A stretch of 35,425 nucleotides of DNA. Origin: Candidatus Methylomirabilis sp. Its GTDB lineage: Bacteria > Methylomirabilota > Methylomirabilia > Methylomirabilales > CSP1-5. How positions within the stretch are numbered: position 1 is the stretch's first letter; every line of letters starts with the position of its first letter. This document shows positions 26,244 to 35,425 of the stretch, piece by piece. The stretch covers positions 1-35,425 of the forward strand of contig JAAXQN010000036.1 of the NCBI GenBank assembly GCA_012974305.1, given 5' to 3'. A model generated the notes under the pieces. That model was not told the DNA's origin and ran no database searches. It saw only the letters and a program-made list of their open reading frames with translations. A program made the position numbers and the translations under genes.

Positions 26244-27983
26244 ATGGTAGAGACAGAGCGTGATCGTCGGGGGCGAGAAACGGATCGGGACTTGCACGGA
26301 GTAATAGAACAGCCGGAATCCACCATTGACATGCAACAGATCTACGACCAAACCTTCAAGGACATTGTGGAAGGGGAGATCGTGAAGGGGAAGGTCCTGG
26401 CGATCGGACCGGATGAGGTCATGATCGACATTGGCTACAAGTCCGAGGGGGGTATTCCGCTCAAAGAGTTTCTGAACCCCCAAGGACAGCTGACGATCCA
26501 GGTGGGCGATGTCATTGACGCCTACCTTGAATCCAAGGAAGACAACGAGGGGCTGATCGTCTTAAGCCGCGAAAAGGCGGAAAAAATTAAGGTCTGGGAT
26601 GAAATCAGCAAGGTCTACGAAAAGGGTGGGGTGGTAGAGGCGACCATTGTAGGGAAGACGAAGGGAGGGCTGATCGCCGACATCGGGGTCCGGGCGTTCC
26701 TCCCCGGCTCGCAGGTGGACCTGCGTCCCGTGCGGGATCTTGATAAAGTGATTGGCAAGACGTTTCCCATGAAGATTATCAAACTGAACCAGCGACGGGG
26801 CAACATCGTCCTCTCTCGACGGGAGCTTCTGGAAGAAGAGCGGAAAGGCCTCAAGGAAAAGACGCTCGCCACGTTAGAAGAAGGGAAGATTTTGAAGGGT
26901 AAGATCAAGAACCTCACAGAATACGGCGCCTTTATTGACCTCGGGGGCCTGGACGGCCTCCTACATATCACCGACATGTCCTGGGGCCGGATCGGACACC
27001 CCTCGGAGCTTTTTGCGGTGGGGGACGAGGTTGAGGTAACAGTCCTCAAGTTCGACCGACAGGCAGAACGGGTTTCCCTGGGTTACAAACAGCGTCTGGC
27101 GGACCCGTGGGGAGACGTCATTCAGAAGTTCGTCCCGGGAACCAAGGTGAAGGGAAAGGTGGTCTCGATCACCGATTACGGAGCATTCGTCGAGTTAGAT
27201 CCAGGAGTGGAAGGTCTCGTCCATATCTCGGAGATGTCCTGGACCCAGCGGGTCAAACATCCTTCCAAGGTGGTGACCGTGGGAGATGTGGTGGACGTGG
27301 TAGTCCTGGATGTTGATCGGTCTTCCCGGCGGATCTCACTTGGGATGAAACAAGTGGAACCCAATCCGTGGGACGCCTTGGAACAGCGGTACCCCGTGGG
27401 GACCCGCCTCGAGGGAAACGTCCGAAACCTAGTTGACTTCGGTGCCTTCATTGAACTGGAGGACGGGATTGACGGACTCATCCATATCTCCGACATGTCT
27501 TGGACCAAACGCGTGAAGCATCCTTCAGAAATCCTGAAGAAGGGAGATCGCGTCGAGGCCATCGTCCTGCATGTCGATAAGATAGCCCGGCGTATCTCCC
27601 TTGGCCTGAAGCAGACCCAACCCGACCCTTGGAAGACCACGGTCCCCGAGAAATACCGGATCGGGATGGATCTCACAGGCAAGGTGGTCCGGATCACCGA
27701 CTTCGGGGCTTTCGTGGAGCTGCCCGACGGCATTGAGGGATTGCTCCACGTCTCCGAGCTGTCCGAGGGACGGGTGAACCGGCCGGAGGATGTGATCAAG
27801 ACCGGAGAGGAATTGACCCTCAAGATCATAAAGTTGGATACGGATGACCGCAAACTGGGCTTGAGCCTCAGGGCATTCCAAGAAGCGACCCAGGAACAGG
27901 AAGGGAAACAAGAAGCGACCCAGGAACAGGAAGGGAAACAAGAAGTGACCCAGGAACAGGAAGGGAAAGAAGAAGGGGAGTAA
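26244..27983 (+). CDS. rpsA: 30S ribosomal protein S1 (six S1 domains)
   Basis: Six consecutive S1 RNA-binding repeats (for example GKVVSITDYGAFVELDPGVEGLVHISEMSW). Start codon uncertain. Confidence 0.95.
   Translation: MVETERDRRGRETDRDLHGVIEQPESTIDMQQIYDQTFKDIVEGEIVKGKVLAIGPDEVMIDIGYKSEGGIPLKEFLNPQGQLTIQVGDVIDAYLESKEDNEGLIVLSREKAEKIKVWDEISKVYEKGGVVEATIVGKTKGGLIADIGVRAFLPGSQVDLRPVRDLDKVIGKTFPMKIIKLNQRRGNIVLSRRELLEEERKGLKEKTLATLEEGKILKGKIKNLTEYGAFIDLGGLDGLLHITDMSWGRIGHPSELFAVGDEVEVTVLKFDRQAERVSLGYKQRLADPWGDVIQKFVPGTKVKGKVVSITDYGAFVELDPGVEGLVHISEMSWTQRVKHPSKVVTVGDVVDVVVLDVDRSSRRISLGMKQVEPNPWDALEQRYPVGTRLEGNVRNLVDFGAFIELEDGIDGLIHISDMSWTKRVKHPSEILKKGDRVEAIVLHVDKIARRISLGLKQTQPDPWKTTVPEKYRIGMDLTGKVVRITDFGAFVELPDGIEGLLHVSELSEGRVNRPEDVIKTGEELTLKIIKLDTDDRKLGLSLRAFQEATQEQEGKQEATQEQEGKQEVTQEQEGKEEGE
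27882..27971 (+). repeat. Three 30-bp in-frame tandem repeats at the 3' end of rpsA
   Basis: Units at 27882, 27912 and 27942: gaagcgacccaggaacaggaagggaaacaa (x2) and gaagtgacccaggaacaggaagggaaagaa, encoding EATQEQEGKQ / EVTQEQEGKE. Confidence 0.95.
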
Positions 27984-33278: not shown

Positions 33279-34046
33279 CTACGGTTCGTTCTTGATCACA
33301 GCGAGTGCTTTAAGGTACCGCCTATACTGCAGGAAGCCGGTGTCCTCCACAAACCGCAGGAGATGGACGCCGTGGGGGAGAATCTGGTCAGCGACTTCAT
33401 CACTTTGCCACATCACTTCTCCCTCGGCGGTCACTGTCCCTTTGGGGAGTTCCATGTGAAGGCAAAGCATGGTCCCAGGTGCCAGCTTCTCGGACAGGAA
33501 GACATGGAGGCCGCGAAGGCTCGCGTTGATCGCGACCCCCGCGACTTCCCGGCTCGGCTCGCCATCCCCTGCAATGACGCACCGGACCGGCAGCTCCGCT
33601 GGAAGGCGGGGATCGCCTCGCCGTGGCGTCTCCCGCTGAGCCCTGCGCGTGGCTGAATTCACCACCTCGATGAGACTTTCAGCCTCAAAGGGCTTCGCTA
33701 GGCAGAACTCCGCTCCGGCGCGAAAGGCCTGCTCGGCGTCCTGCAAGTCCGATGAAACCGTGATGCCGACCACGGGAATGTCTGCGAGGGTACCATCCTG
33801 TTTGAGGCGCTGGCACGTTCTGACCCCATCGAGCCCGGGCAATGTCATGTCCAGGAGGATGACAGCAGGCTGCGCCGTCTGAGCCAGTTTGATCCCAGCC
33901 AGGCCATCGGGGGCCTCAAGGACTCGAAATCCCGCACCGGTGAGCACCGAGCCCGCTAGCTCGCGCAAGACCTGATCATCGTCAATAACTAAGATGGGGC
34001 GTATCTGCACTATTTTCTCCTGATGGTAGCCCCAAGCCGGATCCAT
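33279..34046 (-). CDS. Response regulator with REC and C-terminal PilZ domains
   Basis: REC: ILVIDDDQVLRELAG...VILLDMTLPGLDG...CLAKPFE. PilZ: RLPAELPVRC...INASLRGLHVFL. Start may be GTG 34010. Confidence 0.85.
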   Translation of the reverse strand: MDPAWGYHQEKIVQIRPILVIDDDQVLRELAGSVLTGAGFRVLEAPDGLAGIKLAQTAQPAVILLDMTLPGLDGVRTCQRLKQDGTLADIPVVGITVSSDLQDAEQAFRAGAEFCLAKPFEAESLIEVVNSATRRAQRETPRRGDPRLPAELPVRCVIAGDGEPSREVAGVAINASLRGLHVFLSEKLAPGTMLCLHMELPKGTVTAEGEVMWQSDEVADQILPHGVHLLRFVEDTGFLQYRRYLKALAVIKNEP

Positions 34047-34398
34047 TCTCTGTGATTGACTGGATGTAGTCGCTGATCACCTGCCGCGTCTCCTCTGAGA
34101 GGTCGAGAAATTCCAACCCGGTGTGGTAGATCAACGCCTGCTCCCCATCCGGCTGCAGCTCTATCCGGTTCACCACCGAACGGATCACGCGGCACCTCAG
34201 GCGGAGCCTCTTCCCTTCCAGGTCGAGGTCCAAGGAGGAAGTGGTGCCCGGTCGGACGACCTGGGAATGTTCGATCAACACCCCGCCGAAGCTGATGTCG
34301 ACGAGAGACGCATCATGCACGGCGGTTACACGCCCAGTGGCCTTGCCTGCCACGGTAAATCGGGGATGCTGTCGCCTGTCTCGCTGTCCTTCTCCCAA
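33982..34398 (-). CDS. PilZ domain protein
   Basis: RRQHPRF (RxxxR) and DISFGGVLIE (D/NxSxxG) c-di-GMP-binding motifs. Confidence 0.85.
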   Translation of the reverse strand: MGEGQRDRRQHPRFTVAGKATGRVTAVHDASLVDISFGGVLIEHSQVVRPGTTSSLDLDLEGKRLRLRCRVIRSVVNRIELQPDGEQALIYHTGLEFLDLSEETRQVISDYIQSITENGSGLGLPSGENSADTPHLSY

Positions 34399-34693: not shown

Positions 34694-35404
34694 CTACGTG
34701 CGGGGGGATAATTGAGAAATTTCTGGTGGGCCTGGCAGGACTCGAACCTGCGGCACGAGGTTTAGGAAACCTCTGCTCTGTCCACGGCGCGGGTCCACAT
34801 GACTGTACCGCTGCACCATCTTGAGGTCGCTCCACCCGCCAAGCTCCTGGACGGTGCGGAGGTCCACCCCCTCCATTACCAAGCGAGAGGCGAAGGTATG
34901 ACGCATGACGTGGGGGGTCACGTCCTCCCCCAACCCGGCCTTCTTTCGTGCTGTGTCGAAGGCGGTGCGGATGCTTCTCAATGCCCTACCCTGGCTCACA
35001 AAGATCGGACCGCCGTTCCGGTCCATTCTAAGGGATTGCAGGGCCTGCCACAAGGCGGAGTTGATCGGCACCGTCCGCGTCTTGCTCGTCTTGGAGTGCG
35101 TGCCCACCACCGTCAGCGTGCGCCGTTTCAGGTCCACCCCGTCCCAAGTGAGCGACAGGGCCTCGGAGGGGATCCGCAGCCCCGCGTGGATGCCCAGGAG
35201 GATCACGGCCCTCAGTTGGGGGCTTGTGCAGGCGTCGAGCAGGGCCTGTTCCTCCTCGGCCGTGAGATACCGCACCCTCCCCTCCGGCTCCTTGAGCTTG
35301 GACACCTCCCCCGGCTTCACCTCCCTGCCCGCCGCGACAATCATCGGCCGAACGGCAGTACTCACCGGCTCCGTACATACCTTCGAGATCGGTCGTACGG
35401 CCAA
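34694..35404 (-). CDS. Tyrosine recombinase/integrase catalytic domain; N-terminus apparently missing or degraded
   Basis: GIHAGLRIPSEALSLTWDGVDL, TPHVMRHTFASRLVMEGVDLRTVQELGGWSDLKMVQRYSHVDP contain the R, HxxR, W and Y catalytic residues. In-frame stop lies just upstream of 35404. Confidence 0.88.
   Translation of the reverse strand: MAVRPISKVCTEPVSTAVRPMIVAAGREVKPGEVSKLKEPEGRVRYLTAEEEQALLDACTSPQLRAVILLGIHAGLRIPSEALSLTWDGVDLKRRTLTVVGTHSKTSKTRTVPINSALWQALQSLRMDRNGGPIFVSQGRALRSIRTAFDTARKKAGLGEDVTPHVMRHTFASRLVMEGVDLRTVQELGGWSDLKMVQRYSHVDPRRGQSRGFLNLVPQVRVLPGPPEISQLSPRT
34724..34783 (-). other. 3' part of a tRNA-Arg(CCU) gene (candidate att core)
   Basis: Minus strand AGAGCAGAGGTTTCCTAAACCTCGTGCCGCAGGTTCGAGTCCTGCCAGGCCCACCA: intact anticodon arm with CCT anticodon, T-arm and acceptor 3' strand plus CCA. 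The 5' acceptor (expected GGGCCTG) and D-arm 5' side are absent. Confidence 0.88.
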
Positions 35405-35425
35405 CTATGCGGCCCGGCATTTGCC

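Follow-up and report, generated by a model that had tools for sequence, protein, structure and literature searches.

A tyrosine integrase catalytic domain joined in frame to the 3' part of tRNA-Arg(CCU) at an integration site in Candidatus Methylomirabilis

Results

The window, that is, the whole stretch of 35,425 nucleotides analysed here, is the complete contig C37 of a bin (G000) of 2.82 Mb in 282 contigs. At its right end, a tyrosine recombinase ORF runs through part of a tRNA gene and into host DNA, and the features on which our analysis turns are the following:

33982..34398, minus strand: an ORF that we take, from family resemblance, to be a PilZ-like gene, in the host flank beside the target tRNA; the flank is 97% identical in G006:C53
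34694..34723, minus strand: host DNA 3' of the tRNA, with the last ORF residues (EISQLSPRT) and the stop, assigned by comparison with loci that hold the intact tRNA
34724..34784, minus strand: 3' fragment of tRNA-Arg(CCU), nt 17-77 including CCA, 61/61 identical to the intact tRNA on contig C195
34697..35404, minus strand: tyrosine recombinase ORF of 236 aa, whose sole recognisable domain is catalytic
34790..35269, minus strand: catalytic domain, residues 46-205 (Pfam PF00589, E 2.4e-34)
35405..35407, minus strand: in-frame stop (TAG) that immediately precedes the ORF and lies 18 bp from the contig end

The ORF starts with a TTG immediately after the in-frame TAG and stops at a TAG (34694-34696), its C-terminal end reading ...MVQRYSHVDPRRGQSRGFLNLVPQVRVLPGPPEISQLSPRT. 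Its catalytic domain carries the R, K, HxxR, H/W and Y residues of a tyrosine recombinase (Phage_integrase, PF00589), and alignment with relatives finds the R, K, HxxR, W and Y motifs all kept, with the catalytic Tyr200 encoded at 34805-34807, within an open frame of ~200 codons of high GC3. No Pfam match precedes residue 46, so that the core-binding (SAM-like) N-terminal domain is absent from the contig, with the margin of error that a contig end leaves: the upstream TAG sits ≤21 bp from that end, in a zone of common assembly errors. The same alignment shows residues 1-33 to be unlike those of the relatives, and the helix HKAEAVERI that follows the catalytic tyrosine (SPSHKAEAVERI in G018, SPQHKADAVERI in G006) to be missing. 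When the N-terminal region of the G018 integrase was compared with the bin, no matching piece and no neighbouring contig with an integrase N-terminus was found, the one match being a different, 27% identical integrase on C258. Scans of genome contigs and viral contigs returned no close relative of the window integrase, and matches in phage records all fall below 60% identity (best among the matches listed, ~35%). No intact allele of this same integrase was found, and a deletion was thus not observed directly.

Six residues past Tyr200 the frame enters tRNA sequence, reads the fragment as GQSRGFLNLVPQVRVLPGPP, passes CCA and a few host codons, and ends at the TAG. This is as the first-pass annotation had described it, in both text and coordinates. 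The reference for the 61-nt identity is the intact tRNA-Arg(CCU) on the bin's own contig C195 (L004, 481-557), and the copy in G006 matches over 62 nt (34724-34784/5); the identity is not due to chance. The anticodon of the fragment lies at 34764-34766, and what follows CCA (34694..34723) also follows the intact tRNA in G006:C53 and, minus a 3-bp gap, in C195. Missing at the junction are the first 15 nt of the tRNA, the integrase joining it at nt 16-17. A tRNA finder, suggested earlier as a check, gave a mixed answer: ARAGORN does call a 'tRNA' at 34724-34796, but takes its first ~12 nt, the 5' end, from integrase codons, and the block is a fragment: with Rfam it reaches 28.2 bits, under the gathering score of 29, whereas the intact gene on C195 reaches 67.5.

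That the frame stays open here is unremarkable, because a stop-free reading of the block is possible in two frames out of three and because in a related genome (G091:C137, L153) an integrase ORF, a 254-aa open frame, crosses an entire tRNA-Ser(UGA) gene in frame and beyond; such read-through can occur incidentally. A search with the last 70 residues, covering 95 genomes of the class, found the integrase joined to the 3' half of the tRNA in the window alone; all other matches covered either the integrase part or an intact tRNA separately.

Comparison with related genomes confirms tRNA-Arg(CCU) as the target of integration, as had been proposed: the site is empty in two congeners and is occupied by another integrase in G006. 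In G001 (C51) and G002 (C9) an intact tRNA-Arg(CCU) adjoins the left flank of the window and leads into the right flank seen on C195, with no integrase between, and these loci are the empty sites, with intact tRNA, that a tRNA-targeted island implies. The genes after the tRNA in both are those on the right side of C195, a tRNA-Pro among them, together with genes that we name, from resemblance, APRT-like, acylphosphatase-like and PCM-like. On the other side, the stretch from ~32069 to the tRNA differs between species.

The sibling genome G006, 97% identical to the window, carries a different element in the same tRNA. On its contig C53 the left flank and the intact tRNA stand beside the gene for an integrase of 379 aa, and the first half of the tRNA supplies the last codons of that gene; the protein ends GPVAQVDRAEVS (PVAQVDRAEVS), with the TAA stop within the anticodon loop. 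On contig C171 of the same genome, the upstream flank of the host leads into nt 1-39 of the tRNA, beyond which the DNA is foreign. Taken together, these junctions show that the G006 element supplies the 5' half of the tRNA and that strand exchange takes place in the anticodon loop. If the same holds for the window, its element/host boundary would lie at ~34762-34785, because both G006 junctions place the exchange there, and the tRNA 3' half with CCA would be host DNA; position 34724, which the first-pass annotation had taken for the boundary, is probably not the exchange point. Islands with a 5' fragment represent the minority polarity in bacteria, numbering 159 of the 3919 in Islander (PMC4383910).

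A similar arrangement recurs among the relatives of the window integrase, the best of which (G018, 58%; G006, 51%) come from the same order. The G018 protein (392 aa), the closest, ends GVAQWQSS-stop inside an intact tRNA-Thr, and that of G046 ends PVAQVDRATVS-stop inside an intact tRNA-Arg(CCU). An old integrase remnant lies on C195 (L004, 567-1000), with a KAEAVERL C-terminal motif and a piece of the catalytic domain interrupted by other DNA; there and in G006:C171, which agree at ~97% in this region, the remnant is directly upstream of the tRNA, with KAEAVERL ~26 codons before a stop at the tRNA start. We considered whether this remnant derives from an integrase of which the window has the intact version and rejected the idea, as only 49 bp align at 82%. 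The frames of G006, G018, G046 and the remnant thus all end at or before the anticodon loop. The count of intact tRNAs beside integrases is biased, since ARAGORN mainly detects intact tRNAs.

To the right of the tRNA block the contig runs for another 641 bp. The earlier proposal that a mobile element lies to the right of the window holds insofar as any element must lie on that side; no element is seen within the contig. The companion prediction, an intact tRNA-Arg(CCU) at the far end, fared less well. Apart from the window fragment, the bin has a single tRNA-Arg(CCU), the intact copy on C195, and on its 3' side come 480 bp of the same host flank as in C37, ~95% identical, with C37, C195 and G006 roughly equidistant from one another in the flank. 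On this comparison C195 fits better as the empty-site allele of another strain than as an attachment end, and the bin thus yielded no copy that matches the predicted far end. The end of that contig (L004, 5231-5249) is CTGTCTCTTATACACATCT, a Nextera adapter left in the public assembly.

Discussion

We lean slightly towards a decayed or deletion-scarred host/element junction at a tRNA-Arg(CCU) hotspot, in which the integrase catalytic domain and the 3' part of the tRNA have become fused in frame. The right end of the window would be the junction of the host chromosome with a tyrosine-integrase element or its residue. In related elements the integrase gene immediately precedes the tRNA, with which it shares a strand, and exchange falls within the anticodon loop; such elements bring the tRNA 5' half, in which the last codons of the integrase are written, and so rebuild an intact tRNA at the integrase side. 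The window junction, on this model, is damaged or atypical: integrase coding ends 6 codons after the catalytic tyrosine and meets the tRNA at nt 16-17, so that neither the conserved helix of the C-terminus nor nt 1-15 of the tRNA is present. Both were presumably lost through deletion or decay, and the integrase gene is probably inactive. Read-through to CCA would then be a by-product rather than a functional C-terminus. Two observations temper this reading. With its ~200 open codons, complete active site and high GC3, the integrase is not visibly decayed, which counts against decay, and the upstream TAG lends weaker support than it might, since assembly errors are common so near a contig end. 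Landing sites in tRNA genes are well known, and the junction is in this sense mostly ordinary.

The first-pass annotation had instead proposed that the overlap couples the C-terminus of the protein to its target sequence. A functional integrase of this kind would have an attP with tRNA nt 16-77 inside the 3' end of int, an intact tRNA rebuilt at the unseen far end, and last residues that differ between the integrated and excised forms. Precedent exists: Mx8 and SSV integrases extend across attP and Islander permits overlapping tRNA fragments (PMC4383910), and the 3' end of int is altered by Mx8 integration (PMC6070905), so that even the functional reading would be of a known kind. The 61-62 nt identity ends at CCA in the correct orientation, the catalytic motifs are intact, and the frame does pass the att core in the integrated form, although read-through also happens without meaning. 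Against it stand the unseen far end, the in-frame TAG and the N-terminal domain lacking from the contig, the missing post-tyrosine helix and a fusion found nowhere else among the 95 genomes of the class. The nearest, functional-looking relatives, moreover, have frames that go no farther than the anticodon loop, and their tRNA is rebuilt on the integrase side. An integrase that stops there would keep its C-terminus, which is written in the tRNA 5' half, unchanged on integration; this would be the opposite of the coupling proposed earlier and speaks against it as a family trait. We consider such an attP-overlapping integrase unlikely. Less likely again, and quite improbable, is the specific version in which the targeted tRNA naturally supplies, from its 3' half, the post-tyrosine segment of a working integrase, and the change of C-terminus between attP and integrated form acts as an excision switch; if functional, it would be the tRNA-targeted counterpart of the Mx8 integrase switch.

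Two further accounts turn on the assembly and on C195. The 61-nt tRNA repeat could have led the assembler to join the host flank to the integrase of another element or strain, in which case the fused ORF would have no natural counterpart. The contig, of which the window is the whole, stops 641 bp beyond the repeat; the C195 copy with its ~95% identical flank and intact tRNA implies that the assembly contains several haplotypes or copies, and the adapter at the end of C195 indicates that the ends of its contigs are not free of artefacts. Yet a true attachment junction would likewise switch exactly at the tRNA, the 641 bp are shared with no other contig of the bin, and the integrase, whose best relatives are in the same order, does not come from an unrelated organism; we hold a chimera to be rather unlikely. 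Alternatively, C195 could belong to the same genome and mark the opposite end of the element, which would then be flanked by repeats of >540 bp made of duplicated flank and tRNA. Synteny places the right flank of C195 on the right side of the locus, and at 94.9% its identity to G006 falls inside the range of other G000 contigs (93.4-97.5%). This account demands a second copy of the 480-bp host flank inside the element end, whereas no such addition is required if C195 is an empty-site allele from another strain. The near-equal distances among C195, C37 and G006 also weigh against this account, making it very improbable.

Comparison with known systems places the window junction close to, but apart from, each of them. 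The Myxococcus phage Mx8 likewise has its att core within the 3' portion of its tyrosine integrase gene, and integration would give int a new 3' end (PMC6070905), but its integrase is full-length and tested, whereas in the window the N-terminal domain is missing from the contig and neither attP nor far end was seen. The SSV-type (suicidal) archaeal integrases share the att within the integrase gene, the tRNA target and the anticodon-loop exchange (PMC8371274); there, however, attP divides int into N and C parts, whereas the overlap in the window is at the extreme 3' end alone. Unlike the 5' tDNA-fragment islands of Islander and the pTN3-like integrases, the window retains just nt 16/17-77, and its integrase side carries no rebuilt tRNA. 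Phages with tRNA-dependent lysogeny (Fionnbharth and others) also integrate in the anticodon loop and leave the tRNA unrebuilt at the junction (PMC10865867), but they share a core of ~10 bp and encode a replacement tRNA.

The useful result is the tRNA-Arg(CCU) integration hotspot in this genus, used at least three times: by the old remnant, by the G006 integrase and by the window integrase. Beside it, the PilZ-like gene belongs to a dispersed multi-copy family, whose numerous paralogues in the genus share 70-77% DNA identity with it (L101, L102, L103, L104, L105, L107). Farther into the window (27915-27939), the EQEGKQEATQ repeats at the C-terminus of a ribosomal S1-like protein are ~60 bp longer than in G006.

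Other tRNA halves were seen in both genomes. G006:C151 (L043, 2182-2512) holds a further copy of tRNA-Arg(CCU) nt 1-39, with a second 'CAGAGGTTTCCTAA + hairpin' end ~270 bp away, possibly marking tandem or relict insertions. The sequence GTCGAAAAAGGGGTTGCAGG... was tried as a signature of the element end and rejected, since ordinary genes are followed by it too, as is an intact tRNA (G001:C51, G004:C97); at least in part, it is a terminator-like hairpin that occurs repeatedly. In the window's own genome, the end of contig C174 (L120, 2330-2464) carries a tRNA-Met(CAT)-like 5' half cut at the anticodon loop (GGCGGTGTAGCTCAGGGGCAGAGCAGGGGTCTCATAA) and followed by the same hairpin-bearing sequence as the G006 tRNA-Arg junction, and this genome thus seems to hold another anticodon-loop insertion.
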